From contig NZ_KB903291.1 in the NCBI RefSeq assembly GCF_000379685.1, forward strand, positions 248,001 through 312,000: a DNA stretch of 64,000 bases, written 5' to 3'. The translations under genes were made by a program, and so were the position numbers. Under the pieces are notes generated by a model. The model saw only the letters and a list, made by a program, of their open reading frames with translations. It was not told where the DNA came from and did no database searches. Below are positions 25,096 through 60,061 of this stretch, one piece after another. The DNA comes from Catelliglobosispora koreensis DSM 44566 (lineage in GTDB: Bacteria > Actinomycetota > Actinomycetes > Mycobacteriales > Micromonosporaceae). Each line of letters opens with the position of its first letter. Within the stretch, counting starts at the first letter, position 1.

Positions 25096-25386
25096 CTAGT
25101 CTCCGAGATCAACCGGTCCACCTTCGCCGTTCTTCGGTTTGAGGACGAGGCTCACGCGGTGTGCCGACTCGACAGTTCGGCCTAGTGACCCTCCGGCCTC
25201 GACCACCCAAACCTTCAATGCCGCTTCAGCGGAACGCTCCCTCGAAACAGTGACGCTGAATTCCAGTTCGACCGGGCCGAGTTCGAACGGCATTTCAGAT
25301 CCTTGGCCGCGACGCTGAGCCGTAAGCAGTTCTCGCCGGATCGCATCGATGGCTTCCGCCAGCTCGAGTCCGTCTTTCTCACTCAT
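25096..25386 (-). CDS. Trypco2-type trypsin co-occurring protein
   Basis: A 96-aa protein beginning MSEKDGLELAEAIDAIRREL, followed by a β-rich domain (FELGPVELEFSVTVSRERSAEAALKVWVVEAGG). This is the layout of the trypsin-co-occurring domain 2 (trypco2) family, small partners of trypsin-like protease/NTPase proteins in predicted prokaryotic conflict systems. Its ATG overlaps the stop of the protease/NTPase gene (ATGA), so the two are made together. A Met five codons upstream is also in frame but lies inside the preceding gene. A partner or regulator role is inferred from the family. Confidence 0.75.
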   Translation of the reverse strand: MSEKDGLELAEAIDAIRRELLTAQRRGQGSEMPFELGPVELEFSVTVSRERSAEAALKVWVVEAGGSLGRTVESAHRVSLVLKPKNGEGGPVDLGD

Positions 25387-27872
25387 AGCTCTAGCTCCCA
25401 TTCCATTTTCAGCTCCGTCTGCCGGAGTTGCTTTTGCTGTTCTTCGACTTCTCGGACCATTTGCTTCAGGGGATCCATCGCTGTGGTGATGTTGTGAATC
25501 TGCTCGTCACCGGCCCGGTTTAACCTCATCGCCAGATCTTCCAATCCTTCTCTGGCAGAGAAGGTTTCTAACGTCTGCATGGCACCGCGCATGTCTGCGA
25601 CCTCGTATTCCGGCAAGGAACGCAGGGCATCATTCAGGTTCCAGACTGCCTTCTTGACCTCGTCGTGGAGATTGGACAAGATACCGCCTAATTCCTGTAG
25701 CTGGCCCGGGACCTGCCTTACGGTTGAGTCGAAGGTTCGTACAGCTGCTTTGACCTTGTTGATGATTTGGTCGAACTCTGCTCTGCTCTTGTTGAGCAGC
25801 AACATCTCTGCGGCGATTAACTCCGACTGGGTCTGCTGGCTTCGGGCAAGTTCGACCGCCTGGAGATTCGGCAGAGCGAAAACGCGCACATAGGCTGGCC
25901 ACAACCAGGTCGGGGCTGATTGTCTGGCGTTGCCTGGGTCGCTCGCGGCGGCGATCAGCCGTTCTATGTCAGGCCCCCGTTCCCGGTATGCGGGTCCGAG
26001 TACCTGCTCCAGCGTCCCAGCATCTGTCGTCATTGCACCGATGGCTGCTGCATCCTCAAAAGGAATACGAACGTTCTCTTGCAAATGGGCCGCCACCAGC
26101 TCGGCGATCTCAGCGTGCTCGCCGGCAAGCCTGAACAGTAATGCCAACGCTCGTGTCTGCTCTTCAGGGCTCATCAGCGGGAAGAGATCGAGTAAGGCTG
26201 TCGGGCTCCGTAGGAGTGTGTGCGCCAGCAAGCGGCCGGCCAGTACCCGTATTGGCATCGGATCGATGTCACAGCCGTTACCCGGGTACAGTTCGGCGAT
26301 CGCCCTGACGATGGATCTCGGTAACCCACTGCGGCGAGACATAATCTCATGTAGGCGTTCAGCGCTGGAGAGGGTTCTTACCCCGAAAAACAGAAGCGCA
26401 GCTAGGAACTCAGCCACCTCTTCGAGCATAGGCATGGTCGCGCCAAAGGCGCGGGCATAGCTGGCTAGGCGCCGGATCTCAACATTGATCAGCTGGTCCA
26501 GCGGTTCTGTCATGTCACCGTGCCCATGTAATCTGAGCGCCCATCCCAGCGCGAGTGCATGCACGCTGAGGACGCCTGGATGATCCTCCTGAGCCGTAAG
26601 CACATTCGGGTCAAGCAATCCGGCTTGCGATGCATCCTCGAAGGTGGCGCGGCTCATTGAGGTTAGGATCCGATTGAACGTCTTCGCGGCACGAGCCAGC
26701 TCGGTAATTTCGTCTACGGCGGGGCTTTCTCCATCGAGTTCGAATCGCGCGAATGCCTCGTCGCCAAGCTCCGCAGTGCATGCCATACGGAGCGTCTCCC
26801 ACCACAGGCCGGTTCCGCGGGCGCACAGCAGGACCTTTACCGGCGTTAACTTGTTGTAGGCGAGGTGAGCGGCAAGGTCTGCGATCTCGTGGACACGCGT
26901 TTCTGGGTCGTCGACGATAAGCAGAGTTGGAACCGCGAGTCGATGCAGACGGCGTAGATCAGCGGCCTCCAATCGCGCTGACATTCCGTCTACCAGGCGT
27001 TCGACAGCCCATCCATCTCGGGCCAAGTCTTGGCCAAGCACACAGGCGACGCGACTCTTGCCACTTCCCACAGGGCCTGAAAGGACTCCAATCTCGAAAC
27101 CCGGACGCTTACACCACTGACTGAGCTGTGATCGGGTGGATCTTCTTCCCTTAAAGGCGATGGCCTGCCGGTACGGCTCCAGCAGCACACTTGGCGTATC
27201 ACGATTGATCGGATACTCGTGTTTGTATTTCAAGCTGCGCGGGAGCTTGCCGAACTCGACCGCACGTATCGCGGGAAGCCCTCCTCCGCCAGCCGCGATG
27301 AGGAGCTTTCTTGCGTCCTTGTCGTTCCAGATCGGTGTTACCGCGGCAACTTCAAGCCGATCAAAGGGCGGGCTCTTCCGCCCTGCCTTAACCACTCCGA
27401 TAAGCAGATCATTGCTAAGGACTGGGCCGCCTGAGATTCCGCCCCAGGGCGTCTTGCCTTCAGCGAGAGTGCTTGCCTCCCAATATCCACTTTGTACAGT
27501 GAAATGCAGTCGTTGCTGAACACCCGACGCCGGGTTGATAGTTCCAGTGACTTGCTCGATATTTCGGATCTCCCCTTTGCGTTGTGACAAAGGAAATCCA
27601 AGAGCCTCAGCCGCCAAGTCAGGCGAGTCCGAACACACCATGCCCAGACAGAGTGGCGATACGGGGAATGCCCGATCGCAGTGCATCAAAGCTAGATCAT
27701 TTTCCGGGTCACACCACGCAATTTCCAACGCGGACGACTGGCTCCCGTTGTAGGCCTCACCTGCGGACTCCGCCACATGCCAAGCGGTCAACAGCAACCC
27801 CGGTTGAATGACCGCACCCGAGCCGCGCGGACCCTTCCCTCTTGGCTCGACTGCTATCACTTGTGAACGCAC
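25383..27872 (-). CDS. Trypsin-like serine protease fused to P-loop NTPase
   Basis: An 829-aa protein. Residues 1-~200 form a trypsin-like protease domain with the triad His32 (LLTAWHV), Asp59 (ENDLALMH) and Ser147 (GGISGGPVL). Residues ~225-400 are a P-loop NTPase with Walker A GPVGSGKS at 266-273 and Walker B LLIVDD at 317-322. The middle is helical and STAND-like. The last ~200 residues are heptad-rich coiled coil (AEMLLLNKSRAEFDQIINKVK, EVEEQQKQLRQTELKME). Such protease-NTPase proteins are predicted conflict effectors in which NTPase sensing unleashes proteolysis. The GTG start is chosen because GGAGG lies nine bases upstream and the protease domain follows directly; an upstream in-frame ATG adds an odd sequence. 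It is coupled to the trypco2 gene. Confidence 0.85.
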   Translation of the reverse strand: MRSQVIAVEPRGKGPRGSGAVIQPGLLLTAWHVAESAGEAYNGSQSSALEIAWCDPENDLALMHCDRAFPVSPLCLGMVCSDSPDLAAEALGFPLSQRKGEIRNIEQVTGTINPASGVQQRLHFTVQSGYWEASTLAEGKTPWGGISGGPVLSNDLLIGVVKAGRKSPPFDRLEVAAVTPIWNDKDARKLLIAAGGGGLPAIRAVEFGKLPRSLKYKHEYPINRDTPSVLLEPYRQAIAFKGRRSTRSQLSQWCKRPGFEIGVLSGPVGSGKSRVACVLGQDLARDGWAVERLVDGMSARLEAADLRRLHRLAVPTLLIVDDPETRVHEIADLAAHLAYNKLTPVKVLLCARGTGLWWETLRMACTAELGDEAFARFELDGESPAVDEITELARAAKTFNRILTSMSRATFEDASQAGLLDPNVLTAQEDHPGVLSVHALALGWALRLHGHGDMTEPLDQLINVEIRRLASYARAFGATMPMLEEVAEFLAALLFFGVRTLSSAERLHEIMSRRSGLPRSIVRAIAELYPGNGCDIDPMPIRVLAGRLLAHTLLRSPTALLDLFPLMSPEEQTRALALLFRLAGEHAEIAELVAAHLQENVRIPFEDAAAIGAMTTDAGTLEQVLGPAYRERGPDIERLIAAASDPGNARQSAPTWLWPAYVRVFALPNLQAVELARSQQTQSELIAAEMLLLNKSRAEFDQIINKVKAAVRTFDSTVRQVPGQLQELGGILSNLHDEVKKAVWNLNDALRSLPEYEVADMRGAMQTLETFSAREGLEDLAMRLNRAGDEQIHNITTAMDPLKQMVREVEEQQKQLRQTELKMEWELEL

Positions 27873-27995
27873 GCTTGGGATCCTCCATCGCCAAACCTTC
27901 AGCATCGACCATGATCGATGCATCGTAGTTGGAGAGTCCGACATTCGACCGACCGGAGAAAGTACACAGCGTCTCTTGCTGCCGTTGGGAGGCAA

Positions 27996-28625
27996 TCATC
28001 CAGTGAGACTGCGGGCGGAGTCCCGTTCTTTCACCTCGGCCGAAACTCCGGGTGAAAACAGTCCAGACAGCTGGCCAATCAGGTTCACGGTCTGTTCCTG
28101 GGTCGAGGACTCACCGATGACCCGCTCGCCCGGCACCCCCAGGATGTCGTAGGGGTTGTACCAATCGGCCATCTGCTCGACGGTGAAGCCGGCCATCGGC
28201 CGAGTGGTGTGCCGCCGGGTGGTTTCTTCGAAGGACACGTCGAGGTAGAAGACGCTGCTGCACCCTTCGTGGCTGTCCAGCAGCCGCAGCAGCATCGGAC
28301 GGTATTTGCCGGTCCAGAGGATTCCCTCGAGGATGACGTCCCGGCCGCGATCGACAAGCCACCGGACGTTGTCCTCGAGATAGTCGGCGATCAGGCCACC
28401 GGTTTTGTCTTGCTCCCACAGCACAATCCGGCGGAAATGGTCCTGTCCGATCAAAGCGCAGTTCCGGCCTGCCCGCTCACGGACCAGCTGCGCCACCGTC
28501 GATTTCCCCGAGCCGGAGTTACCTCTGATGATCACGAGCCGGGTGGACGAATCACCGCAGGGGCTTAGTTCGGCCGGCATCGGCACATGATGGCACCGGG
28601 CGGCAGCCCTGGCATCATCCGACAC
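27996..28625 (-). CDS. Zeta-toxin/AAA-type P-loop kinase-like protein
   Basis: A 209-aa small P-loop protein with Walker A GNSGSGKS at 35-42, DHFRR in the position of the substrate-binding DxxR segment, and DVILEGILWTGKYRPML resembling the zeta-toxin/kinase Walker B-side loop. A lid-like stretch is rich in Arg (TRRHTTRP). Relatives phosphorylate nucleotides, sugars or antibiotics. No antitoxin-like gene is evident, although the 77-aa gene just upstream could be a partner. An alternative start is Met16 (28580), which would place the P-loop at residue 20. It lies in the same direction between the Ntn-hydrolase pair and the protease/NTPase gene. Confidence 0.75.
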   Translation of the reverse strand: MSDDARAAARCHHVPMPAELSPCGDSSTRLVIIRGNSGSGKSTVAQLVRERAGRNCALIGQDHFRRIVLWEQDKTGGLIADYLEDNVRWLVDRGRDVILEGILWTGKYRPMLLRLLDSHEGCSSVFYLDVSFEETTRRHTTRPMAGFTVEQMADWYNPYDILGVPGERVIGESSTQEQTVNLIGQLSGLFSPGVSAEVKERDSARSLTG

Positions 28626-28704: not shown

Positions 28705-28938
28705 TTACTCGCAGCCGCCTTCGCAGACCGCTGTCTCCAACACGTGTAAGCCAAGATCGGTCAGCAATCTGAGGTTTCGCTTCAGCACCGGGCTGCCCGC
28801 GAGCTGGTTGTCGACGTGCGCCCATAAATAGACGGGCACAATGCCGATCGCATGATGGATGGCCTGTAAGTGCGTCTCTGTCGTTGAGGCCGTCGGCTGC
28901 TGCAACCCGATTAGCCCGCGCACATCAGCGCCGCTCAC
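28705..28938 (-). CDS. Small protein coupled to the Ntn hydrolase, 77 aa
   Basis: The GTG start overlaps the stop of the upstream gene (GTGA), which is the main evidence for this start. The product (GLIGLQQPTASTTETHLQAIHHAIGIVPVYLWAHVDNQLAG and a Cys-containing end CEGGCE) has no known family. Such a tightly coupled small protein could be a partner, substrate or inhibitor of the hydrolase. Confidence 0.6.
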   Translation of the reverse strand: MSGADVRGLIGLQQPTASTTETHLQAIHHAIGIVPVYLWAHVDNQLAGSPVLKRNLRLLTDLGLHVLETAVCEGGCE

Positions 28939-29933
28939 CCTTCGGCCGAAAAGATTCCGGGTTCCATCGGCGCGAAGAACCCGACCGTGTAATTGGGCTG
29001 TGGCAGCCAATGCAGAACTTGGCCGTGCTCGATCAACACGCGTTTGGCCATGTCTTCGGCGGAGTCGATATCGGTGTAGGTGCACATATCCCAGGGCTGT
29101 CCATCTGGATAGAACACTCCGTTTCTTGCTTGTGGGATGCAGAACCCGATAGCGCGACGGTTCTGCGGGCCGCCGATGAGCGTGTAGCGGAGATCCTGAA
29201 CTGGATCATCAGTGCGTGCTACGAGTCGCACTTTCCCATCCGGCAGGAGCTGGCTCTGATAGCGCAGCCAGTCGGGCAATGTCTGCTGGGTGTGCTCGGC
29301 ATATCGGAAGCCCGACGGCGTGGTCATCACCTCTGTCAGATAGCCGCCGATCGTCCTGTCGAATCGAGCCTGGTCATTGCCGGTCAACTGCCGCAGACGC
29401 TCGCGATCGTTCGCAGTGCGCACGGGCTGACCATTGTCGATATTGATCCACCACTGGACGGCCATGCGTAACGACTGGGCCTCGTCGACTTCGGTGCTGT
29501 CGGGGTGCATAGATTCCTTTTGCCATTTGAGGTAGAGCTCGTGCGACTCATGGTCGCCGATTTCCAGTCTCCCGGGTGCGGTGACCGGGACTGCGGCGCC
29601 GTTTCGGATCCGCCACAGTGTCGGGCGCGGCACAAGGGCAGCGACGATAAATGTCTCGCCACCGCTGCCGCTACGGGCGCGCAGAGCATCCACCGTCTTA
29701 GAGATGTCGTCCGGGGCTGTGTAGATCGTCCGGTACAAAGTTTCCTGGTGGAAGGCTAAAGGGCCGGCGAACCCCACAGCCACAGTGGGAGAGACGACGA
29801 GCAGCTTCAGCAGCGGGCGGCGCAGTAGCTGATGCCGCGTCTTCGTATCGTCGACGGGATTGTCGTACGTCACCTGAGTATCAGCAACGAGGCTAATCCG
29901 ACCATCGTGAATAGAGCCGATCACCAACGTCAC
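28935..29933 (-). CDS. Proteasome/HslV-like Ntn hydrolase
   Basis: A 332-aa GTG-started protein. After Met removal the N-terminal residue is Thr. The start TLVIGSIHDGRISLVADTQVTYDN aligns with proteasome β-type and HslV subunits: Thr1, Asp17 in LVAD, and a later Lys in LLKLLVVSPTVAVGFAG corresponding to the catalytic Lys33 region before the conserved GFAG turn. Family members are threonine peptidases assembled into rings. This protein has about 150 extra C-terminal residues and no adjacent ATPase ring gene such as hslU. It could be a stand-alone peptidase or amidohydrolase. Its placement at the head of a co-directional run with a P-loop kinase and a protease/NTPase suggests a joint role, but this is inference. 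Confidence 0.7.
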   Translation of the reverse strand: MTLVIGSIHDGRISLVADTQVTYDNPVDDTKTRHQLLRRPLLKLLVVSPTVAVGFAGPLAFHQETLYRTIYTAPDDISKTVDALRARSGSGGETFIVAALVPRPTLWRIRNGAAVPVTAPGRLEIGDHESHELYLKWQKESMHPDSTEVDEAQSLRMAVQWWINIDNGQPVRTANDRERLRQLTGNDQARFDRTIGGYLTEVMTTPSGFRYAEHTQQTLPDWLRYQSQLLPDGKVRLVARTDDPVQDLRYTLIGGPQNRRAIGFCIPQARNGVFYPDGQPWDMCTYTDIDSAEDMAKRVLIEHGQVLHWLPQPNYTVGFFAPMEPGIFSAEG

Positions 29934-30280: not shown

Positions 30281-31048
30281 CTATTCTTTGAACTGACTGA
30301 TGACATCGTCGATGTTGTTGACTGCGGTGGCGTTCGCCCAGACGCGATCGAAGCTTCTGAGATAATGATCGAATACTCGACCGCCAGGTAGCTGCCGAAG
30401 CTGTAGTACGGGGTTCTGTGCTGCTGCGGCTCCGTAGGTGTGGGCGTTCACCAGCATCATCTCGTCGCCGCGGTATATCGATGCGTAGAGCGTACGGTCG
30501 TGCAGCCTGAGTTCTATGTTTCCTGAGTCCAGGATAGGTGCGTAGTAACGCATCGTGAGGACGACCCTGTGAGCTACGCCTAGCCCAACGCCCTCTTCTT
30601 CGCCGCGTTCGCGTACTGCCGTGCCATTGGGATCGCCAAGTAGCAGGCGGACCCTGCATCCTTCCGCCGCGCGTTTGGCGATTCGGTAGACGTCGTGAAT
30701 CTCAGGCAGAAACTGGCCAGCAAACGCAAGAACATCGATGCTTGTCTCTGCCGAATCGATCAATGACCGCCACAGCTCCGGGGGTACTGCGGAACGCGAG
30801 GCAAAGAAGTCCACGAGTTCAGCGCGACTTGACGCTGCCGCGCGGGTGTCATCTGCCACGGAAGGCCAAAGATAGGTCTCGTCGACACCGAGCAGCTTCG
30901 CGGTGGCCTCGCGGTGCGACCGGTGAGGGACGCGATTAGCCGTGATCCATCGTTCCACGGTCTTGTAATCCACTCCCACCAGCTCCGCGCACCTGGCGAT
31001 CGATATCCCACGCGACGACAGTGCGCCACGGAGCCGTTCGTTAGGCAC
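30281..31048 (-). CDS. XRE-type regulator with DUF5919/PLD-like C-terminal domain
   Basis: A 255-aa protein. Residues ~1-70 are an XRE helix-turn-helix (ARCAELVGVDYKTVERWITANRVPHRSHREATAKLLGV). Residues ~90-250 match the DUF5919 pattern of actinomycete regulators: IDVLAFAGQFLPE, CRVRLLLGDPNG, IELRLHDRTLYASIYRGDEMMLVNAHTYG and FDHYLRSFDRVW. This domain has the fold layout of phospholipase D-like proteins. GTG at 31048 has AAGGGAG seven bases upstream. The protein is a paralogue of the regulator at 34679-35428, and a broken third copy lies at 33755-33935. It probably represses or activates nearby genes in response to a small ligand; the ligand is unknown. Confidence 0.85.
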   Translation of the reverse strand: MPNERLRGALSSRGISIARCAELVGVDYKTVERWITANRVPHRSHREATAKLLGVDETYLWPSVADDTRAAASSRAELVDFFASRSAVPPELWRSLIDSAETSIDVLAFAGQFLPEIHDVYRIAKRAAEGCRVRLLLGDPNGTAVRERGEEEGVGLGVAHRVVLTMRYYAPILDSGNIELRLHDRTLYASIYRGDEMMLVNAHTYGAAAAQNPVLQLRQLPGGRVFDHYLRSFDRVWANATAVNNIDDVISQFKE

Positions 31049-31052
31049 GGAC

Positions 31053-31172
31053 CTACTCCCTTCCGATCGAGCCACTCGGACGATCAATCATCTGCCACCT
31101 CAGCGCGAGCCACCAGCCCACCCCAACACCCAGTGCTCCTATCCATAGCGGCGCGACGCGTAGCTTCTTCAT
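31053..31172 (-). CDS. Possible 39-aa single-pass membrane peptide
   Basis: A short frame with CAAGGA five bases before ATG. The product is MKKLRVAP, then the hydrophobic stretch LWIGALGVGVGWWLALRW, then a polar tail. Its stop lies four bases before the start of the DUF5919 regulator, so the two could be co-translated. A longer form from 31199 is possible. Part of the same sequence is conserved at the deleted copy near 33909-33935. Confidence 0.45.
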   Translation of the reverse strand: MKKLRVAPLWIGALGVGVGWWLALRWQMIDRPSGSIGRE

Positions 31173-33989: not shown

Positions 33990-34682
33990 GTGATTCTGGT
34001 TCTCTGGGATGTCGACGGCACCTTGATCAACAATGGCGGGGTCAGCAAAGAGATGTACGCTGCCGCATTCGAGATTCTTTCAGGTCAGCCGGCGCGGGTT
34101 AAGGCTAGGACCGATGGCCGCACCGACCCAGAGATCATGCGCGACCTAATCGAGCAGCACGGTCTTGAGCAGACCTCAGAGCACGTCGCGCAGCTTCACT
34201 CCGCTCTCGCCGCCGCCATGCGGGCCAAGGCCGACGTCCTGCGTAAGCGGGGCTATGCCCAGCCAGGGGGCCGCGAGGCGATCGACGCCTTGATGCAGCG
34301 CAGTGACATAGTTCAGTCAGTTCTTAGTGGCAATATCCGCGACAACGCGTACATCAAGCTCTCCACCTTCGACCTGCACGAAGGTCTCGACTGGGAGGTG
34401 GGTGCGTTTGGCTCGGACGCCAATCACCGCCCTAGCCTTGTGAAGATCGCTCAGGAACGTGCCTCGGCCAGTTACGGCGCAGAGTTTGGGCCGGTGAACA
34501 CTGTCTTGATCGGAGACACCCTGCGGGACGTACGTGCCGGGGTCGAGGGCGGCGCACGCGTCATCGCAGTGACGACCGGTGTCGACAGCGCCGAGGACCT
34601 GACACGCGAAGGCGCCCAGATCGTGTTTCGCGATCTCACCAATACGGTCGCACTGCTGGATGCGGTGCTTCAGGTCAGTTAG
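33990..34682 (+). CDS. HAD-superfamily hydrolase (phosphatase-like)
   Basis: A 230-aa HAD protein. The nucleophile motif is LWDVDGTLI (Asp7/Asp9), the cap is helical, motif II is LSGNI, and motif III/IV is VLIGDTLRDVRAGVEGGARVIAV. It is similar in plan to phosphoglycolate phosphatases. GTG at 33990 places the motif at the N-terminus as usual; a longer frame from ATG 33927 adds 21 residues that arise partly from the rearranged repeat. Its stop overlaps the stop of the convergent regulator gene. Confidence 0.85.
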   Translation: MILVLWDVDGTLINNGGVSKEMYAAAFEILSGQPARVKARTDGRTDPEIMRDLIEQHGLEQTSEHVAQLHSALAAAMRAKADVLRKRGYAQPGGREAIDALMQRSDIVQSVLSGNIRDNAYIKLSTFDLHEGLDWEVGAFGSDANHRPSLVKIAQERASASYGAEFGPVNTVLIGDTLRDVRAGVEGGARVIAVTTGVDSAEDLTREGAQIVFRDLTNTVALLDAVLQVS

Positions 34683-35428
34683 TCCGTGGCCTGGTACGAC
34701 TGATAGGGATAGGACTCATCCCACACGCGCCGAAAGCTCCTGGCGTAGGTGTCGAAAAGGTCGGCGCCATCTACGCGCCGTAGGTGCAGAATGGGTGCGA
34801 TATAGCCGTACGCACCGTATATATGCTGGTTGACCAGCATCTGATCGTCAAACACGAAGATGCTGTTGTAAAGAGTGGTCCGATGTAGATGGAACTCGAT
34901 CCCCGGCCAATCCACCAGCGGCTGATAGTAGGCCAGGGCCATTCTCACCCGCGCCGGGATCGCATCGAACAGTTGTTCTTCCCTGCCGCGCAGCTCGACC
35001 TCCGGGCTATCTGGGTCACCCAGCAGGATCTGCACCCGCGTTCCTCCGGCGGCCTTCGCCTTAAGGATCTCGATTGCCTCGGGATTCTCTTCGGGCAGGA
35101 AGAGGCTTGCGTAGGCAAGCAGGCCGATGTGGTCGTTCGCCCCGCGGAGCAGCTCTAGCCAGTGCCGCTTGGGTACCGCCGCCCGATGCGGATAGAACGC
35201 TTGGACCTCTGCCACGTCCTGGCTCCTGGCCGGCTGAAACTGCGGCCACAACCAGGTGAGCTCCACTTGCAGCCGCAAGGCGGCCTGCGCAGCGATCCGC
35301 CGGTGCGGCAACCGGTCTTTGGTGATCCAGCGCTGCACGGTCTTCGGATCGACACCAACCAGGTCACCCAGATCCGTCTCGCTGAGATTCGCCTTCATGA
35401 GCGCCTCACGTAGCCGCTCGTTCGCCAT
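34679..35428 (-). CDS. Second XRE + DUF5919-type regulator
   Basis: A 249-aa protein with the same layout as the regulator at 30281-31048. The HTH is at ~1-65 (LSETDLGDLVGVDPKTVQRWITKDRLPHRRIAAQAALRLQV). The DUF5919/PLD-like domain has IGLLAYASLFLPE, TRVQILLGDPDSP, IEFHLHRTTLYNSIFVFDDQMLVNQHIYG and FDTYARSFRRVW. It diverges from the eleven-gene biosynthetic operon and is therefore the natural candidate for its regulator. GGGACGT-type inverted repeats lie in the shared promoter region. Confidence 0.87.
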   Translation of the reverse strand: MANERLREALMKANLSETDLGDLVGVDPKTVQRWITKDRLPHRRIAAQAALRLQVELTWLWPQFQPARSQDVAEVQAFYPHRAAVPKRHWLELLRGANDHIGLLAYASLFLPEENPEAIEILKAKAAGGTRVQILLGDPDSPEVELRGREEQLFDAIPARVRMALAYYQPLVDWPGIEFHLHRTTLYNSIFVFDDQMLVNQHIYGAYGYIAPILHLRRVDGADLFDTYARSFRRVWDESYPYQSYQATD

Positions 35429-46779: not shown

Positions 46780-49257
<2,478 letters not shown>

Positions 49258-49360
49258 CTAAGGCTCACTCACGGGTCGGCAAGTATCCGGTCAGTCTGGC
49301 ACAGGGGTATGGCAACAGGGCCAGCCCGTTACCACGATCCGGGCACGTCGGTCTTTTTGA

Positions 49361-49588
49361 TCACAATGTCGGGGTTAACGCCCTTGCCCGCAGCTCGTCG
49401 GCGAATACCGGGTCAGGAGACTCGATGATCGTTAGATCCGGCACCTGCCTTATGGCATGCATGGCATGTTCTATGCACGCCCAGCGCTCACCCAAGAGCT
49501 CATGTCCCCACCTAATGAGGTATGGACTGCCTTGGCAAGCTGTCGATGGATACCACAGGTGCGTAGGGCAGCGCTCCGCGGTCACCAT
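49361..49588 (-). CDS. Possible 75-aa hypothetical protein
   Basis: A frame beginning MVTAERCPTHLWYPSTACQGSPYLIRWGHELLG with AAAGGGCGGA upstream. The Trp/Cys/His-rich composition looks protein-like rather than like a shadow frame. No family is recognised. It lies in the gap between the leuS start and the HIT gene, on the same strand as leuS. Confidence 0.4.
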   Translation of the reverse strand: MVTAERCPTHLWYPSTACQGSPYLIRWGHELLGERWACIEHAMHAIRQVPDLTIIESPDPVFADELRARALTPTL

Positions 49589-49687
49589 GAGTCCGCCCTT
49601 TCTGCCACCACGTGTGGATCTTGAAACCCGACTGGCTTCCCTGACCCCTCTAGTTTGGACGACGCCCAATTCCTTACCATCACCGGC

Positions 49688-50119
49688 ATGGGCTGCGTCT
49701 TCTGCGAGATCGTCATCAATCCGCAACTCGCGAGCATTATTCATGCTGACGATATCGCAGTCGCTTTCCTCGACCGTCGACCCGTCTTCAAGGGACACGT
49801 TCTGGTCGTCCCCACTACGCACGCCCCCACCCTCATTGAAATCGCCGATCCAGGGGCATACTTCCAGCGAGTTCAGCTTCTAATTCAAGCCATCGAACAG
49901 GGTCTTGGGACGGACGGTGTCTTCGTAGCAATTAACCATCGAGTCAGCCAGAGTGTGCAGCACTTGCACACACACCTGATTCCTCGGCGCAAGGGCGACG
50001 GGCTTAGGGGCTTCTTCTGGCCTCGAACCCGCTACGAAGATCAGGACGAGGCAATACAGTTCGCCGAATCAATCCGGCACGCGATCCCAATTGAGACCGA
50101 CGCAACGGCGTTCAATTGA
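49688..50119 (+). CDS. HIT-family nucleotide hydrolase
   Basis: A 143-aa histidine-triad protein. The start MGCVFCEIV is typical, and the catalytic HxHxH motif is at 92-96 in QHLHTHLIPRRKGD. HIT enzymes cleave nucleoside-5'-phosphoramidates, aminoacyl-AMP and related adenylates. A HIT-type phosphoramidase detoxifies the aminoacyl-tRNA-synthetase inhibitor microcin C in another system, which makes its position next to leuS and a biosynthetic cluster suggestive. Chance neighbourhood is also possible. A TTG eleven codons upstream is in frame but unlikely. Confidence 0.88.
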   Translation: MGCVFCEIVINPQLASIIHADDIAVAFLDRRPVFKGHVLVVPTTHAPTLIEIADPGAYFQRVQLLIQAIEQGLGTDGVFVAINHRVSQSVQHLHTHLIPRRKGDGLRGFFWPRTRYEDQDEAIQFAESIRHAIPIETDATAFN

Positions 50120-50389
50120 GAATCTCGTAACTACTCACGGGCCTAACACGGAGCGACCCAAGTGCCATTAGAATAGGGTGCTCCTTTTATTGGTCACTCT
50201 CCACTAACTCGGTTGAACAACTCGAAGATGAATTCGGCATTCCGCCTTCGTCAACCAGCCTGGCAATTGCACAAAAGTCGTCTGCCGCCGTCACTACCCT
50301 TGCGACGCAACATAACGATCTCAGTCAAGTCCGTGTTCGTATCTGACTCGTCGGCTCCCGCTCGAACACATCCCGTTTTGCATGTTGGT
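50120..50389. other. Boundary region, no gene seen
   Basis: About 270 bases of lower GC content between the HIT gene and the last gene of the conjugation operon. It probably marks the junction between accessory cargo and element backbone. No gene, direct repeat or attachment site could be identified by eye. Confidence 0.4.
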
Positions 50390-50653
50390 TCAGACCCAGA
50401 GCGGTCCTTCGGTGAGGCGTCGTCGCCATGTGTCGAGTTTGCGGATCTCTTCGGGTCCTGAGATTTCGACATAGCCGTCGGGACTGCGGACCCACCAGGA
50501 GGGTCCGTAGCGCACGAAGATGCAGTGCCGGGGTTGAGGGCTGAGCAGGATGGCCTTACCTGCGTCGACGTGGCGTTGCATGGCGTCGAGGTCGATGCGC
50601 CGCGGGATCGGGATACGACGAGGAGGCGCGGTATCGATGTTGGTGTCAGTCAT
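50390..50653 (-). CDS. Hypothetical protein, 87 aa
   Basis: ATG with GGGAGG seven bases upstream. Basic N-terminal half (APPRRIPIPRRIDLDAMQRHVDAGKAILLSPQ) and Trp-rich C-terminal part (YGPSWWVRSPDGYVEISG). No family is recognised. It is the last gene of the minus-strand conjugation operon. Confidence 0.65.
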   Translation of the reverse strand: MTDTNIDTAPPRRIPIPRRIDLDAMQRHVDAGKAILLSPQPRHCIFVRYGPSWWVRSPDGYVEISGPEEIRKLDTWRRRLTEGPLWV

Positions 50654-50667
50654 CTCAAGTCCTCCCG

Positions 50668-51654
50668 TCACAGCTCGATACGGCGGTCGGTGACCGGGTT
50701 TATGGCGGACGATTCCAACGGTGCTTGCGTAGTGGCGGCGGGCTGCTGCCGGGCGGCCGATGCTTGGCGTTCGTGCGCTGCGGCGGCGCTGACGGCCAGG
50801 CCAGCCGAGACATGTTCGCTGAGCAGTTCGTGGCCGATGACGACTGCTGTTCCCGTGGCCACGGCGGTGGCGCCGAGCCTGGTCAGGTAGCGGTAGTCCG
50901 GTTCCCGCTCCGGGTCGGCGGGTCCTGGTTCGCGCTGGTAGTAGGCGTTGATTTCGCGGCCGCGTTCGATCTCCCACGCGACGATCACGGGGTCGACGGG
51001 GTCGCCGTGGTAGGCATGGGAGACGGTGATCTCGAACGCCATTCGCCGTTGTTCGGTGGTGAACACCTCCGGGTCGAGCCATGCGGCGACTTTGCCTGCC
51101 TGGTCGGGGTGCTGGAGCAGGTCGGCGAGTACCTGTTCCTCCCGGGTGAGGTCTACTTCCACCACGACGGACGTGCTGACGACGGAGGTGTCGGGGGCGA
51201 TGATGCTCGAGGCGGCGAAAATCGCGGCTTGGGCTTCGAGCGCCGCCCCGGTGTGCTGAAGGGCTGCGCGGGCTTCGAGGTCGTTTTCGAGTTCGGCGGC
51301 GGCCAGGTATGGATCGGCGAAATCCAGCATGTCCCGGTCGAATGCTGCGTTGAGGACGATTTTGACGTAGGCGCGCACGTGCGGGTCGTCGGGGGCGTCG
51401 GCGGCGAGCTGGGTGAGCCATGCGGTGTCGACGTCGCCGCGGTCGACCGCTGCGCCGACCGCGGTGATGAGTTCGACCTGGGTATAGTCGCCGAGCCGCA
51501 GGTCCGCCAGCGCCGTGTAGATGGCCTGGTGGGCGGGGTGGCCGAACATGTCGGCGTCCAGGCTGGTGTAGACGAGGGCGTGTTCGTCGGGGTCGCGGGC
51601 GGAGAGCAGTGCGCCGAGGACGCCTTGCTCGGCTCGCATGATCAAGTCGGTCAT
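50668..51654 (-). CDS. Protein with two DnaB N-terminal-like domains
   Basis: A 328-aa protein. Residues ~1-120 (AEQGVLGALLSARDPDEHALVYTSLDADMFGHPAHQAIYTALADL) and again ~170-290 (REEQVLADLLQHPDQAGKVAAWLDPEVFTTEQRRMAFEITVSHAYHGDPVDPVIVAWE) match the helical N-terminal domain of replicative helicase DnaB. That domain normally binds primase and the helicase collar. There is no helicase domain: no Walker motifs, and a low-complexity Ala/Gln tail. It may recruit or block the host replisome or primase for the element. It sits at the end of the conjugation operon. Confidence 0.75.
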   Translation of the reverse strand: MTDLIMRAEQGVLGALLSARDPDEHALVYTSLDADMFGHPAHQAIYTALADLRLGDYTQVELITAVGAAVDRGDVDTAWLTQLAADAPDDPHVRAYVKIVLNAAFDRDMLDFADPYLAAAELENDLEARAALQHTGAALEAQAAIFAASSIIAPDTSVVSTSVVVEVDLTREEQVLADLLQHPDQAGKVAAWLDPEVFTTEQRRMAFEITVSHAYHGDPVDPVIVAWEIERGREINAYYQREPGPADPEREPDYRYLTRLGATAVATGTAVVIGHELLSEHVSAGLAVSAAAAHERQASAARQQPAATTQAPLESSAINPVTDRRIEL

Positions 51655-51666
51655 GGTGGTCCTCTC

Positions 51667-52368
51667 TTACTCGGGGCGCAGTTCGTCTAGTTGGGTGTCG
51701 GCGGCGCGCATGGCGGCGGCGGTGCTGTCGAGGTGTGCTTGGTGTTGGGGGTCGGTGCACGGCAGCCAGGTGTCGTCTGGGGTGCGGGTCCACCAGGTGC
51801 CGTCGAGTTGGGCGTAGATCGGCAGGCTGCTGCTGTGCACGACGGCGCGACCGGCCTCAAGCGCGGCGGCCATTGCCGACGCGCTCATCCCAAGTCCGCC
51901 TTCGGCCGTGGCCGAAGGAGCTGTGGTCGGTGCGGGTGCGGATGCCATGAGCGGTGGTCCGGTTTCCAGCCAGGCGCGGGGGTGTTCGCCGGGGAGGTCT
52001 GTCAGCAGCGCGGCGTCGGTGTGACCCGAGCGGCACGAGGGGGCCCAGAAGCCAGCGCAGGCGGCGATGGTCTGGCGGAGTTCGCCGTGCCAGGAGCGCG
52101 CGGTGTGCCCGGCCGTGGCGTTCTCGGGTGCGGTGTAGATGACCTGCCGCCACGCCTTGAGCGCCCGCAACTCCTCCACAAGGCCGGGGTGGTTGGGCCA
52201 GCACAGCGGTAGCCGTTCTTCACGGGACAGCTCGTATAGGTCGTGGATCCAGATGACCCATTCCACGAGGGCCTGCCATTCGGTGGCCTGCTCGTCGCGG
52301 GTCATCGCATGCCATTCGCGGATCAGCGGCGGCGGTGCCTGTGCTGGGATGGCCGCGTTGGTGCTCAT
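51667..52368 (-). CDS. DUF4913-like protein
   Basis: A 233-aa protein. Residues ~25-110 (ALVEWVIWIHDLYELSREERLPLCWPNHPGLVEELRALKAWRQVIY ... ARSWHGELR) match DUF4913, a domain of unknown function on actinobacterial conjugative elements. The rest is Ala/Pro-rich with a Trp-containing C-terminal part resembling the 87-aa protein downstream (IYAQLDGTWWTRTPDDTW versus FVRYGPSWWVRSPDG). Its start overlaps the stop of the coupling protein gene (ATGA) and has GGGAGG upstream. Confidence 0.75.
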   Translation of the reverse strand: MSTNAAIPAQAPPPLIREWHAMTRDEQATEWQALVEWVIWIHDLYELSREERLPLCWPNHPGLVEELRALKAWRQVIYTAPENATAGHTARSWHGELRQTIAACAGFWAPSCRSGHTDAALLTDLPGEHPRAWLETGPPLMASAPAPTTAPSATAEGGLGMSASAMAAALEAGRAVVHSSSLPIYAQLDGTWWTRTPDDTWLPCTDPQHQAHLDSTAAAMRAADTQLDELRPE

Positions 52369-54137
52369 CGTGGTCCTCCCATATGTTCTCGCGCCTGCTG
52401 GGCAGCGGCGGCGTATTGCTTGGCGTGTCGGCTTTCGAAGTGGCGGGTCATGCGGGTGGTCACTGCTGGGGTGGTCGCGTGGATGACTAGTGCTTGGCGC
52501 GCGGTTTCGTCGAGCGTGCGGATCGCTTCGGGTGACATGGTTTTGCGGTCGACGACGGTGGCTTGCTGGCTGATGCCGTCGCGGTTGCGTTGGGCGACCA
52601 GCAGCGTCTCGCGATAGGTGCCGGACAGTTGCGAGAACTCCTCGAGGTCGTCGCCGGACAGCCCACCCAAAGCGATCTTGATGGTGGAGTTGCTCCACAT
52701 CTGGTCGCGGCCGACTCTTCCCCAGCGTTCTTCCAGGGCAGCGAGGTTTTGTGCCACGGCGGTGATGAAGATGCCGAAGCCTGCACTGGTGGACATGTAT
52801 TTCGGCAGGTCGGGCAGGGGGACGACGTTGGTGACCTCGTCGAGGATCAGCCCTAGCGGCGGGTCCAGGCGCCCGTTGGGTGAGGCGGTGGCGTGGCGGA
52901 CCGCGGTGCGCAGCAGTTCGCGGACGAACGAGGTCACCAGCGGGGCCAGTCCGGTGACTTCGTTCTCGTCGACGAGCAGGTAGATGGTGCCTTCCCCTGC
53001 GGTGACGAATGTGTCGAGGTCGAAGCTGTCGGAAGGAAGTCCGCAGAACACCTGCTGGGCGGCTTTGCCGAACAGGGCGGTGGTGGAGGTCTGCACGGTG
53101 GTGAACAGGTTGGCGCGGGTGGTGCCGGGCTGGCGGTAGAGCTTGTCGAGCATTTTCAGGACGCCGGGTTCGGCGCCGTGTGCGTCGCGTAGGAGACGCA
53201 CCGGGGTGTCGTCGGTTTCGTCGACTGACCAGTCGAGGACGTCGCGCATCGTCCGGCCAGTGAGGGCGGCGGTGTGCAGCCAGCCGGCCATGATGTTGGT
53301 CGCGGTCATGGCGAAGAACCCGGAGTTGCTGGAGTCGCTGCCCTGTTTGCCGACTTGGATCATCGTGTCGGCGCGGCGGCGGGCGGTCTCGAACTGTTCA
53401 CAGCCGGCGATCGGTGACCAGCGCAGTTTGTGCGGCCAGGACAGGTCGCCGGTCAGGTCCATCACCCATGCGGTGCCCGGCCGCAGCATGGCGGTGGCTT
53501 CCAGCACGTCGTGACGAACCGAGGTCACCAGGGCAGCGCCGGGGAAGGTCCGCAGCCACGGGATGATCACCTGCGACGTCTTGCCCTGCCGTGGCGCGGA
53601 CAGGACCAGCACTGAGGTTTCCAGGCTCGCATACAGGGCGGTGTTGCCCGCGTGGCCGAGATCGACCGCGACGTCTTCCACCCGCAGCTTGCCAGTGAGG
53701 TTCGGGCGCAGCCGCTTGGCTTTCGCCAGCACCGCAGAGGCGGTCATGGTCTTGGCCAGCTGCTGCCGGGAAGCCATACCCCGCCGCTGTCCACCGGTGC
53801 CGAACCGGCGGTAGCCGACCACCGCTGCGGCGACGAATAGAGCCAAGATTAGGAGCATGGCGATGTAGAACCCTGCCGGGCCGGGCAGGTCGCTGCGGGC
53901 GGCGGCCGGCCAGGCCATCTTCGGGTCGGCCAGATGCTGTGGGAGGGCGAACGCGATGGTGAACGCGTCGCCGAACCCGGTGTCCGGCCAGCTAGCGCGG
54001 AACAGCAGTCCGGCGAGCTGCCCGGACAGCCAGGTGCCGATCGACAGGAAACCGGCCAGGCCGATGATGGCGATCAGCAGCGCGTCCGAGCCGGTGGCGA
54101 TTGTTCCGCCACCGACGCGGGTGGTGTTGGCGCTCAT
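52365..54137 (-). CDS. Type IV coupling protein (TraD/TraG/VirD4-like)
   Basis: A 590-aa membrane ATPase that links the relaxosome to the secretion channel. Two N-terminal membrane segments (~20-48 and ~88-108) are followed by a P-loop domain: Walker A APRQGKTS at 181-188, then a Walker B-like GLILDEVTNV near 415-425 and a C-terminal helicase-like arginine segment. The conserved NSTIKIALGGLSGDD region is typical of actinobacterial VirD4 proteins. ATG at 54137 has GGAAGG upstream. It follows the VirB4-type gene by 44 bases. Confidence 0.92.
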   Translation of the reverse strand: MSANTTRVGGGTIATGSDALLIAIIGLAGFLSIGTWLSGQLAGLLFRASWPDTGFGDAFTIAFALPQHLADPKMAWPAAARSDLPGPAGFYIAMLLILALFVAAAVVGYRRFGTGGQRRGMASRQQLAKTMTASAVLAKAKRLRPNLTGKLRVEDVAVDLGHAGNTALYASLETSVLVLSAPRQGKTSQVIIPWLRTFPGAALVTSVRHDVLEATAMLRPGTAWVMDLTGDLSWPHKLRWSPIAGCEQFETARRRADTMIQVGKQGSDSSNSGFFAMTATNIMAGWLHTAALTGRTMRDVLDWSVDETDDTPVRLLRDAHGAEPGVLKMLDKLYRQPGTTRANLFTTVQTSTTALFGKAAQQVFCGLPSDSFDLDTFVTAGEGTIYLLVDENEVTGLAPLVTSFVRELLRTAVRHATASPNGRLDPPLGLILDEVTNVVPLPDLPKYMSTSAGFGIFITAVAQNLAALEERWGRVGRDQMWSNSTIKIALGGLSGDDLEEFSQLSGTYRETLLVAQRNRDGISQQATVVDRKTMSPEAIRTLDETARQALVIHATTPAVTTRMTRHFESRHAKQYAAAAQQAREHMGGPR

Positions 54138-54181
54138 CGGTATCCTTCCTGATTCCACATCGGACACAAGAACGTGGTGTG

Positions 54182-55678
54182 TTAGACCGCCATGCGTTCG
54201 TTGGTGTAGAACAGCTGCTTCTCCAGCGGCGACAGGATCGACTGCACGATCTGGGACGGCTGGCGGCCGACCTTCCACAGCGCACGGCCGACGTGCTCAC
54301 CTGACCAAGACTCGATGTGCCGGCATTCGGTGTCGGTCAGCCCGATCGCATCGCGGGTCATCGCCAGCGGCGCGGTGTCCTGGCGCAGGCAGACCCGGAT
54401 GTCACACGACGCGATCAAGTTCGATGCGATCTTGACTTCTTCCGAGCCCGCCGGGCCGACGGCCTCGAAGTCGGCCAGGCGGTGGGTGGACATCACCTGG
54501 ATGGTTCCCTGCGCCCGGGACAGCCGAAGATCGCTGTCGACTTTGCGAATCATCGCCGGGACGCGCATCGCCCGCCACAGCTCGTCGCGGATGACCAGGC
54601 GGACCGGGCCGCCGGGTTCGTCGATCGCCGCCTGCCCCCAAGAGGACACGCAGGCTAGCGTCATCGCGACGGTCTCGTCACCGCGCCCGTCGATCCTGGA
54701 CAGGTCAACGGTCTGGATAGGTGCGTCGAAGTCGAGGCGCACGGTGGTCGCCGCGTCGAACAAGCCGCTCAGCGAGCCGTTGACCATGTTCCCGAGGGCG
54801 TCGGCGACCGGGCGGATCATCTCTCGCAGCTCGGCGGTGTCCTCGCCGCGCACCCGCAGCTCGCGGGCCATATCGTCGAGAGGGTCGCGCAGCAGCGCCC
54901 ACACCTGCGGGATGGTCGGATCCACCAGATCGGTGGCACCGTCGGCTTCCCCGGAGGCGTGCTTGATGGCCAGTGACAGCGCGGCTTCCTCGGTCGGGGT
55001 CAGCGCCCGGCCCAGCCGCATCACCAGCAGGCTCGAGAGGAGGGTGATGCGGCGGCGGTGAATCTCGTCGAGGCGCTGGCGCAGCCGCTCGGCGTCGGCA
55101 GGCAGGTTGCGGCCCAGCGGACCCGAATCGAGGGGGTTGAGCCGGTTGCCGAGGCCCGGTCCGAGCTCCACCGGCTCCACCCCCAGGTATCGGGCCAGGC
55201 CGGCATATTCGTTCTTGATGTCCCCCAAGACAAAGCTGCGCACGCCGTAGGCCATCAGTCGCAACGCGAGGAGCTTGATCGTTGCGGACTTCCCGGACCC
55301 GGGAACGCCGGTGATCAGCATGTTCGGGTTGGTGATCAGCCCACGGCGCAGCCACTCGATCGGATGGCAGGAGAACGAGCCGCCCGATTGGGTGTCCACG
55401 CCGATGTAGGTGCCGGCAGGGGGCATGGTCTGCCCGTACAGCCACGGATACAGGCCCTGCATCTGCCCGGTCGAACCACGGAACACTGGGATGTCCGGCA
55501 ACCTGGATGCGCGGCCGGCGAAAGGCCTCGCCCAGCCGCGGCGCGGAGGGACCGGCTCGGTGGGTTGCCGTTCCTTCTTCTGGCGCACCTTGCTGTTCTT
55601 GGTGGGCTTGGCCATCGGGCCGAGCACGTCGGTGATGTCGACCACCGGCAGCTCGTTGCCGCGTTTGCGGGTCAGCAT
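54182..55678 (-). CDS. VirB4/TraC-type conjugation ATPase
   Basis: A 498-aa cytoplasmic ATPase that powers pilus or channel assembly. Residues 1-~100 are basic and disordered followed by a β-rich segment. Walker A GVPGSGKS is at 124-131, FVLGDIKNEYAGL follows, and the Walker B/DEL block LVIRDELWRAM is near 345-355, then RLSRAQGTIQVMSTHRLADF. It is shorter than Gram-negative VirB4 because the N-terminal half is encoded separately by the SCO6880-type gene, as usual in actinomycetes. The start has GGAAAGGG upstream; a 26-residue N-terminal extension is possible. Confidence 0.9.
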   Translation of the reverse strand: MLTRKRGNELPVVDITDVLGPMAKPTKNSKVRQKKERQPTEPVPPRRGWARPFAGRASRLPDIPVFRGSTGQMQGLYPWLYGQTMPPAGTYIGVDTQSGGSFSCHPIEWLRRGLITNPNMLITGVPGSGKSATIKLLALRLMAYGVRSFVLGDIKNEYAGLARYLGVEPVELGPGLGNRLNPLDSGPLGRNLPADAERLRQRLDEIHRRRITLLSSLLVMRLGRALTPTEEAALSLAIKHASGEADGATDLVDPTIPQVWALLRDPLDDMARELRVRGEDTAELREMIRPVADALGNMVNGSLSGLFDAATTVRLDFDAPIQTVDLSRIDGRGDETVAMTLACVSSWGQAAIDEPGGPVRLVIRDELWRAMRVPAMIRKVDSDLRLSRAQGTIQVMSTHRLADFEAVGPAGSEEVKIASNLIASCDIRVCLRQDTAPLAMTRDAIGLTDTECRHIESWSGEHVGRALWKVGRQPSQIVQSILSPLEKQLFYTNERMAV

Positions 55679-55815
55679 CAGTTTTCCCTTTCCGAACAGT
55701 TGCGCGGCAACGGAATCCGGCCGACCGCGCCGCCATGCTTTCGGCCGCACAGCCACACCCCTGGGGCGCGGCGGGTTCCCCGGCGCAGATTGAGCAGGCA
55801 GACAGGACTGGTCAT
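55678..55815 (-). CDS. Possible 45-aa coupled small protein
   Basis: A short ORF between the SCO6880-type and VirB4-type genes. Its ATG lies five bases after the upstream stop. Its TGA overlaps the next ATG (TGATG), so ribosomes could pass through all three. The product is basic with three Cys residues and has no family. It may be only a coupling ORF, or the VirB4-type gene may start earlier in another frame. Confidence 0.4.
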   Translation of the reverse strand: MTSPVCLLNLRRGTRRAPGVWLCGRKHGGAVGRIPLPRNCSEREN

Positions 55816-55820
55816 AGTCG

Positions 55821-57356
55821 TCACCAGCGCTTGCGGGGCAGGCCGTAGCCGAGCGGGAGAGCGCCCATCGCGAACCCAGCGTCGTGGGCGTACCACATGC
55901 GCCGGATCTCGATACGGGCTGCGGCGGCGTCGGCTTCCAGGGCCATGCACGCGTCTTCGAGCTGGTCGGCGTCGGTGACGGTGATCGTCACGTAGCCGGT
56001 GTAGCGGACCAGGCCGTGACCCTGCGCGAGTTCGGCGTCCTGGGCCTCGGCGCGTGCTAGGGCCTGCTTCTCGTGTTCGGGAACGATTTGCTTTGTGCGG
56101 TGGCGCATCCCGACCGCGATGGAGCGTTTGGTGCGCTCGCCCATTACCTTGCGCGACGCCTCCCGCGGCCCGAGCGGCTCGACGTGCATGCTGAACGACC
56201 GACGGTGTGAGCCTTCGCCCAGCAGCGGGGCCAGGACGGTGGCGTAGACGTGGTTGCGCGGCCAGTCGTGCACCCAGTATGTCACCGAGTGGGCACCGTC
56301 GTGGGCATAGGCATGGGGCATGCTTTCCGCTGCGGCCGGACCGGCGACCGCCGGGTCCACACCGGCGGGAAGTCCTTGCGCGCCAAGGCCGCTGGCGTTG
56401 GCGCGCCGCTCGGCCAGAGGGCGTCCGGAGTGCGGGTCGAATGCGGTGCGGATCACCTCACCGAGATCGCGTGCGCTGAGCCACGATTCGATCTGCAGGT
56501 CAGCTCCGGCGATCGAGGCGCCCAGCGCCCGAAGGTGACGGGACAGGACCTCGGCGGCGGCGACCGATCCGCCGCCCGCGCTTTTGATCGCGGCACGCGC
56601 CCGGGATTCGTCCATTGTGAACGCCAGGTACGCCTCGCGCTGACTCGTAGCCAGAGTTGCGGTGGCCAGCAGGCCTTCGGTCACCGCGACCGACACCTCC
56701 GGTGCGGCCGGGGAGACATGGTCGTGGTGCCAGCGGCGCAACGCCGCACCCGACTCCGGCACAATCCGTTGCAGCGCTTGGACTCTGGTGATGACATTGC
56801 CTTCGGTGCACAGCCCGGCCAGCAACGCGCCCCACCCGGACACCCGCTGCTCACGCCGCGAGGAGTCCACCAGCGAGATCCCGGAGTAGCGCACCTTCGC
56901 CACGGCGGTGTAGGTGCGATCCAGCCGGTGGTACGCCACCGCTAGGGGCGCTCCGTGCGGCCCGTTGCCCTCCATGATCTTCAAGGGGGCCAGGACGCCG
57001 GGCAGGTCCATCGGCTTGGGACCGGCCTTGTCCTGCACCGATTCCGGGGCGAACGCAGCCGATAGGAACTTGGTCCTCGTGCGGGACTTGTTGAGGTGGA
57101 AGGAGACGAAGGCCAACGCCCACTCGTCAAGGGTCCGGCCGCCCAAGCGCACGAACACGATCGCGATCAGCGCGATGCTGATCGGCCACAGCACCAGCCC
57201 CGACTGCAAGCGCGACGACGCCAGGGGCCAGATCGCGGTCAGCACGGCGGCGGCGAGCATCGCGACACGCTGCGCGCTCATCCCGAAAAGGAACGCGACC
57301 TTTTCGTGCTGCCAACCGAAGTAGGTCCGCACGGCAGGCTCCTGGTTGGCGCTCAT
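55821..57356 (-). CDS. SCO6880/PrgI-family conjugation protein
   Basis: A 511-aa protein with two N-terminal membrane helices (~28-45 and ~52-70), preceded by the FGWQHEKVAFLFGMSAQRV segment of the family. A large soluble domain follows that corresponds to the N-terminal half of VirB4-like proteins. The SCO6880 family partners the VirB4-type ATPase in actinobacterial type IV secretion. Its start overlaps the stop of the VirB6-like gene (ATGA), as expected for a coupled operon. Confidence 0.88.
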   Translation of the reverse strand: MSANQEPAVRTYFGWQHEKVAFLFGMSAQRVAMLAAAVLTAIWPLASSRLQSGLVLWPISIALIAIVFVRLGGRTLDEWALAFVSFHLNKSRTRTKFLSAAFAPESVQDKAGPKPMDLPGVLAPLKIMEGNGPHGAPLAVAYHRLDRTYTAVAKVRYSGISLVDSSRREQRVSGWGALLAGLCTEGNVITRVQALQRIVPESGAALRRWHHDHVSPAAPEVSVAVTEGLLATATLATSQREAYLAFTMDESRARAAIKSAGGGSVAAAEVLSRHLRALGASIAGADLQIESWLSARDLGEVIRTAFDPHSGRPLAERRANASGLGAQGLPAGVDPAVAGPAAAESMPHAYAHDGAHSVTYWVHDWPRNHVYATVLAPLLGEGSHRRSFSMHVEPLGPREASRKVMGERTKRSIAVGMRHRTKQIVPEHEKQALARAEAQDAELAQGHGLVRYTGYVTITVTDADQLEDACMALEADAAAARIEIRRMWYAHDAGFAMGALPLGYGLPRKRW

Positions 57357-59580: not shown

Positions 59581-59590
59581 GTTCGGCCGC

Positions 59591-59908
59591 TTAGCTCGCC
59601 GCGCCGAACACGGTGTTGACCAAGGGGATGGCGATGGCGGTGGCGATGACGCCGCCCAGCGACCAGATGAAGGCGCTCTTGCCCTTCTCCGCGGTGTCGG
59701 GCCTGTTGCTGAGCTTGCCGATGGCCATCATGCCGCCGGAGATCGCGGCGGCGAGTGCACACGCGATCAGCGCGCCCCATTTGGCGTAGGAGATGAGAAG
59801 CGAAACGCCCTGAGATCCGCCTGTCGGATCTGCGGGTGCCGGGTTGGGCACCACGTCAGATAGGACATCCAGCGCAATTTGGGCATAGTGCTGCGCATTG
59901 ACTGACAT
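59591..59908 (-). CDS. VirB2-like pilin or small membrane component
   Basis: A 105-aa protein with two hydrophobic helices (LLISYAKWGALIACALAAAISGGMMAI and SLGGVIATAIAIPLVNTVFG) separated by a short charged loop (NRPDTAEKGKS). This is the size and topology of VirB2/TrbC-type pilins and of the small conserved membrane proteins that begin actinobacterial conjugation operons. It is the first gene of the minus-strand operon, about 100 bases downstream of a putative promoter. Confidence 0.75.
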   Translation of the reverse strand: MSVNAQHYAQIALDVLSDVVPNPAPADPTGGSQGVSLLISYAKWGALIACALAAAISGGMMAIGKLSNRPDTAEKGKSAFIWSLGGVIATAIAIPLVNTVFGAAS

Positions 59909-60022
59909 AGCTGTACTCCGAGGGGGAACAGTGACAGAGGGTTATCACGTCCCGCACGGAACCGCAGGTCAGGGCCAAGTTCCTAGCTGCCGGTCACGTT
60001 GCGTGATCGTGTTGGCGGCCAC

Positions 60023-60051: not shown

Positions 60052-60061
60052 ACGATTGTTG
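60045..60061. promoter_or_regulatory. Operator-like repeat 1
   Basis: TTGTCAAACGATTGTTG, partly self-complementary. It matches the second copy at 60099-60115 in 14 of 17 positions and overlaps the −35 of the conjugation promoter. Confidence 0.55.

Follow-up and report, generated by a model that had tools for sequence, protein, structure and literature searches.

Proteasome homologs that work outside the barrel are almost uncharacterized. Fuchs, Alva and Lupas described 22 new proteasome homologs in 2021 (PMC8665760). The Distant Actinobacterial proteasome Homolog (DAH) of that study, represented by 77 sequences at nr90 from Actinobacteria and some others, is remote from the proteasome and has an extra C-terminal domain without a known match, and connectase is a monomeric ligase with the proteasome fold (PMC8665760). 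For the homologs the study reported neither AAA+ partners nor an informative gene context, and it suggested quality-control-type roles for those without unfoldases, as for BPH (PMC8665760).

The window analyzed here is a stretch of 64,000 nucleotides from Catelliglobosispora koreensis DSM 44566 (contig NZ_KB903291.1). It holds a 332-codon ORF that is a real gene for a proteasome-like Ntn hydrolase of a rare actinobacterial kind (Table 1). An initial annotation had proposed a stand-alone proteasome/HslV-like Ntn hydrolase coupled to a 77-residue protein that might be its inhibitor, adaptor or substrate. The Ntn fold, the N-terminal Thr, the equivalents of Asp17 and Lys33 and the lack of an unfoldase stand; the HslV label is not supported, and a small-protein partner is unlikely.

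Table 1. Features at and around the Ntn hydrolase gene, with positions in the window
Feature	Positions	Strand	Basis or remark
Proteasome-like Ntn hydrolase, 332 aa	28935-29933	minus	ORF, SD, fold match, conservation in nine members
C-terminal extension (residues 213-332, ~110 aa), specific to the family	28938-29297	minus	Lies past the last proteasome strands
77-aa ORF	28705-28938	minus	GTGA overlap; probably a remnant, related to the C-terminal part of actinobacterial flavoproteins (PF02441)
PRK06762-type P-loop kinase (zeta-toxin/AAA_33-like)	27996-28625	minus	Neighbor of the 332-aa gene
Trypsin-like peptidase fused to STAND NTPase (nSTAND_NTPase5-like)	25383-27995	minus	Trypsin 2e-6; nSTAND_NTPase5 1.2e-7, just below the curated cut-off; RT-Protease_XI 3.6e-7
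HTH + DUF5919 regulator	30281-31087	minus	Upstream, same strand as the 332-aa gene

Results

The ORF Carries a Conserved Threonine-Peptidase Motif

The ORF, for which a length of about 330 residues had been claimed correctly, opens with GTG-ACG (Met-Thr), and because an SD-like GGGAG stands 5 nt upstream of the GTG, this is likely to be the N-terminus. With the Thr at codon 2 numbered as mature Thr1, Asp17 corresponds with exact spacing to D18, and the equivalent of Lys33 is K43, ahead of a GFAG turn at residues 54-57. The "GD" of the Ser129 region falls at residues 126-127 and the "GG" of the 170-171 region at 196-197. The stretch from Asp17 to Lys33 contains 25 residues in this family compared with 16 in the proteasome, i.e., the loop is nine residues longer.

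In an alignment of nine members, in which the relatives are 23-47% identical to the window protein overall, all proteins start with Met-Thr or Met-Ser (Thr at position 2 in eight, Ser in one), with no beta-type propeptide before the nucleophile. Met1, D18, T19, T22, K43, A56 and G57 are invariant. Because the Thr or Ser at position 2 and D18, T19, T22, K43, A56 and G57 are kept in all nine, the motif noted originally (Thr1, Asp17 and a Lys before GFAG) is not due to chance, and its retention at such low identity indicates that the threonine-peptidase site is under strong selection. Fuchs et al. (2021) define such a site by Thr1 or Ser1, Asp17, Lys33 and a Gly turn for the oxyanion, and each of these can be assigned from the alignment. 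The equivalent of Gly47 is Ala in one relative (L004). At the Ser129 position eight members have Asp and one has His; the Asp166 position is variable, and Ile or Val stands at the Ser169 position, so that the full accessory network of a 20S beta subunit is not retained. Since these three equivalents are unconserved, activity of the protein is not assured.

The Predicted Fold Is That of a Proteasome Beta Subunit

An AlphaFold2 model built from seven family sequences was of moderate confidence (pLDDT 69, pTM 0.72), and as far as about residue 211 its elements follow the order seen in a proteasome beta subunit (S1-S2, S3-S4, H1-H2, S5-S8, H3-H4, S9-S10). With Foldseek the model matched 1pma at E = 5.5e-8 and 783 PDB chains at <1e-3, and with VIA-align it matched 6bdf_1 with Z = 16.6 and an rmsd of 3.5 over 173 aligned residues; the top structural matches were archaeal 20S beta subunits. 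Because model residues 2..220 map to residues 1..200 of 6bdf_1, Thr2 starts where Thr1 starts, and the predicted N-terminal nucleophile falls on the catalytic Thr1. The initial annotation had staked its proposal on an Ntn fold; the two sheets and the helix pairs H1-H4 that define the proteasome beta fold (Fuchs et al., 2021) are all present in the model, and the fold, as modeled, is of this type.

Most VIA-align rows stop near model residue 214-228, leaving the C-terminal extension beyond them. Modeled alone, the extension gave a weak mixed alpha/beta model (pLDDT 60.6) with no match in the PDB. HslV- and Anbu-type chains were absent from the VIA list, an absence that excludes nothing.

The Protein Belongs to Neither HslV nor the 20S Proteasome

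The 332-residue protein had no match in Pfam, NCBIfam or PADLOC, and PHROGs gave only weak, chance-level matches. Searches of PDB sequences with phmmer and with a profile returned nothing significant (HslV, E = 0.84), and a profile-profile comparison of the family with 20S/HslV sequences was not significant (E = 0.22), with D18 and K43 paired with residues 17 and 33. The best fold matches being archaeal 20S beta subunits and the HslV sequence match very weak, the HslV label falls away: there is neither a PF00227 or NCBIfam match nor an hslU beside the gene. Membership of the 20S proteasome fares likewise, with no PF00227 match and no alpha/beta pair for the 332-residue gene; PF00227 is found in this genome only in a canonical prcB-prcA pair on another contig.

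The absence of an unfoldase partner such as hslU was noted at the outset and holds. The neighbors are the trypsin-STAND protein, the kinase and the DUF5919 regulator, none of them like HslU, ClpX or Mpa; among the neighbors read there is no unfoldase-like AAA+ gene, and neither the window gene nor the relatives have a neighbor like HslU.

The trypsin-STAND protein resembles predicted conflict systems of multicellular bacteria. A second HTH regulator of the cargo region (34679-35428) is like the DUF5919 regulator by sequence only. Positions 1-24905 and 46780-62504 look, judged from ORF translations, like a conjugative or integrative element, with genes for ParB-like, C5 methyltransferase, SSB, large helicase and transfer-like membrane/ATPase proteins; a 1505-residue RecD-like protein also has a library match.

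The Family Is Rare and Sporadic

Whole-genome searches of the order recovered relatives at L002, L003-L005, L032, L033, L034/L035 and L075/L077. The first is 48% identical to the window protein over the aligned part and has Ser at position 2; L003-L005 share one genus, two of these loci being from Mycolicibacterium (records L009 and L010), and L075/L077 belong to the window's own family. A plasmid search gave one relative, a copy on a Rhodococcus plasmid (L007). No relative was found in IMG/VR, and tblastn against phages returned nothing for the window protein, L005 or L032 and only chance-level matches for L033. The gene occurs in 5/397 genomes of the order, in 1/198 of one genus and 5/301 of that genus's family, and in 3/171 of the window's family, one of these being a remnant only. 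The distribution is rare and sporadic. A further weak match, L037, was dropped as a relative once its ORF had been read.

A broken copy in G1171 is split over contigs or frames (L034/L035), and L078 (G1389:C1:856621-856797) is a remnant comprising a C-terminal fragment only. Such remains fit rapid turnover of the gene.

The 77-Residue ORF Is Most Likely a Flavoprotein Fragment

The small ORF exists as described, its GTG overlapping the TGA of the 332-residue gene (GTGA). Its codon-position GC is 0.65/0.43/0.77 and is coding-like only from the GTG onward, so that it is a small protein or else a remnant of recent origin. Pfam gave no match at its cut-off, and the PF02441 domain is incomplete. 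Among the weak matches from 150 genomes, flavoproteins recurred as a class (L012, L025, L030; all PF02441). A profile of these three scored the 77-residue protein at 23.2 bits, whereas the highest-scoring of 2000 shuffles reached 11.1, with some selection bias because the three had been found with the 77-residue query itself. When two PF02441 loci of the window's genome were added the protein still scored best (20.0 versus 13.9), a weaker test with one locus in the wrong frame. The alignment is confined to residues 31-68, which correspond to the C-terminal third of the flavoproteins; the protein lacks the remainder of the domain.

Beside the relatives of the 332-residue gene there is no counterpart of the 77-residue protein. 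Because it resembles a C-terminal piece of a flavoprotein and lacks such a counterpart, it is unlikely to serve as a partner, whether inhibitor, adaptor or substrate, and the idea of a conserved inhibitor or adaptor is rejected. The idea of a coupled pair is corrected accordingly: judged by sequence likeness, the ORF is most likely a leftover flavoprotein fragment and not a regulator of its neighbor.

Relatives Often Lie near Anti-Phage Genes

The relatives sit in variable islands. At L045, Avs2 (PADLOC, E = 5e-300) lies directly upstream on the same strand, and AAA and Avs4-like genes lie downstream. L077, which was found after the idea of a link with defense had formed, has a Lamassu set 2-7 kb downstream (LmuA, 2.8e-173; LmuB, 8.9e-170; LmuC, 3.8e-75). 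An AbiGi-like gene precedes the family gene by 45 bp, and the locus also has a resolvase-like gene and an endonuclease VII gene. At L043 an ApeA-type HEPN protein adjoins divergently, followed by an Mrr nuclease. At L010 the nearest upstream gene, 35 bp away, codes for an AAA-like protein and is followed by that of a large type IIG-like helicase-nuclease, while a trypsin-like gene lies downstream; L042 has a PDC-M36A candidate (PADLOC) and transposase-like genes. In the window the neighbor that counts as conflict-related is the trypsin-STAND protein. No clear known defense system lies within 7 kb of the gene at L044, L046 or L009. No defense partner is common to all loci, and the small neighbors differ at every locus.

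Scored by hand, anti-phage genes lay near five to six of ten family loci compared with one of 16 control regions, which were chosen arbitrarily from four of the same genomes and were unmatched for island location. In this small and partly post hoc comparison, Fisher's p was 0.018 with five loci, 0.005 when the window was included and 0.14 when the count was restricted to Avs2, Lamassu and ApeA. The nearness of family genes to anti-phage genes, which is new relative to the 2021 study, is suggestive only, but we regard it as a good lead. In the literature searched we found no report tying proteasome-like proteins to defense islands.

The one positive control region held a type IV CRISPR. This set (Csf-type Cas5/7/8) was assigned to L056 (G222:C5:200000-214000) from a pooled tally; the region probably shares a contig with the M. 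wolinskyi family member, which is ~110 kb away. At two mycobacterial-type loci (L009:8516-10945, L044:7112-12596) a dnaB-like gene adjoins the family gene or lies no more than about 3 kb from it, and the site may be an insertion hotspot.

Discussion

Our preferred reading, to which we give a probability of about 0.6, is that the gene encodes a stand-alone proteasome-like Ntn hydrolase of a rare actinobacterial subfamily, carried as island cargo and most likely acting as a protease in islands where anti-phage systems are frequent, with the 77-residue ORF being a flavoprotein fragment and not its regulator. It draws on the fold, the catalytic residues, the Met-Thr/Ser start, the distribution and the identity of the neighbors, as read from sequence and model; Met removal, peptidase activity, the oligomeric state and a role in defense are what we infer.

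Methionine aminopeptidase removes a Met that precedes Thr or Ser. In the present protein this would free Thr1 (Ser1 in one relative), which the equivalents of Asp17 and Lys33 would activate, with the GxAG turn forming the oxyanion hole. Through an acyl-enzyme at Thr1 a specific protein would be cleaved, or possibly ligated, without an ATP-driven unfoldase, at folded or flexible sites. The C-terminal extension probably recognizes the substrate or a partner, and specificity may come from it together with the longer S2-S4 loop. Carried as cargo in mobile or variable islands, many of them with anti-phage systems, the protease would act during phage infection or element conflict. A wider and more tentative proposal is that single-gene proteasome-like Thr/Ser hydrolases could be dedicated anti-phage or element-conflict effectors in actinobacteria, working without an unfoldase.

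The protein might be an ordinary stand-alone quality-control peptidase, uncapped and clearing unfolded proteins as proposed for BPH, that is found in islands simply because accessory genes gather there. We consider this possible: there is no conserved partner gene, all sorts of unrelated genes collect in islands, the genome encodes a separate prcBA proteasome, and roles of this kind are suggested for unfoldase-free homologs by Fuchs et al. (PMC8665760); however, the very sporadic distribution is unlike that of a housekeeping function, and several loci adjoin known anti-phage systems.

A connectase-like activity as protein ligase or transpeptidase, in which the acyl-enzyme formed by Thr/Ser, Asp and Lys is transferred to an amine, is improbable. 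Connectase, a monomeric ligase, shares the fold (PMC8665760), and the longer Asp17-Lys33 stretch lies near the site of its insertion, but here the insert is short and no two-helix structure is predicted for it, the model contains the H1-H2 pair missing from connectase (H63-72 and H77-91), and no recognition-tag substrate is known. Also improbable is a catalytically dead scaffold, as the loss of the accessory Ser129, Asp166 and Ser169 might suggest, given that Met-Thr/Ser, D17 and K33 are invariant across deep divergence and the change of nucleophile from Thr to Ser is conservative. Least likely of all is a toxin-like effector protease controlled by a small neighbor, as the GTGA overlap in the window or the AbiGi-like gene 45 bp upstream in L077 might hint, because small neighbors differ in every locus and the 77-residue protein appears to be a flavoprotein fragment found nowhere else beside the family.

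For the reading as an island-borne protease, the repeated siting beside Avs2, Lamassu, ApeA and restriction-type genes offers a first testable function for the subfamily. If phage protection proved true, a proteasome-type protease would join prokaryotic immunity.

The family shares with 20S beta subunits (1pma and 6bdf of T. acidophilum; 1q5q of Rhodococcus) the fold and the positions of Thr1, Asp17, Lys33 and the GxxG turn, but differs from them in having no propeptide, alpha subunit gene, ATPase partner gene or PF00227 match, in the added C-terminal extension, and in the unconserved Ser129, Asp166 and Ser169. HslV is likewise bacterial and proteasome-like, with the same Thr1-Asp17-Lys33 and GFAG turn, and BPH and Anbu are bacterial, proteasome-like and without a known unfoldase; however, all three are shorter, and HslV is encoded with hslU and has no significant sequence match to the family. 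Connectase resembles it as a proteasome-like fold working outside the barrel, but is archaeal, lacks H1-H2 and has a two-helix S3/S4 insertion.

Gene 30 of Gordonia phage Nymphadora (289 residues, AMS03189), fold-matched in BFVD, also has a Met-Thr start, Asp at mature position 17 and a Lys before a GFTG turn. It is only ~18% identical, represents a different subfamily, and was not recovered by tblastn with family members. The gene (L073:23671-24537; record 27670-28536) is unannotated, lies, in temperate Gordonia phages, in the region that separates the tail genes from the integrase, and is identical or nearly so in nine records.

Closest by description is DAH, which, like the present family, is actinobacterial, rare and distant from the proteasome, with an extra C-terminal domain and no unfoldase. 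Set beside DAH in this way, the family is probably of the DAH type; whereas no informative context was described for DAH (PMC8665760), the family analyzed here has defense genes among its neighbors.
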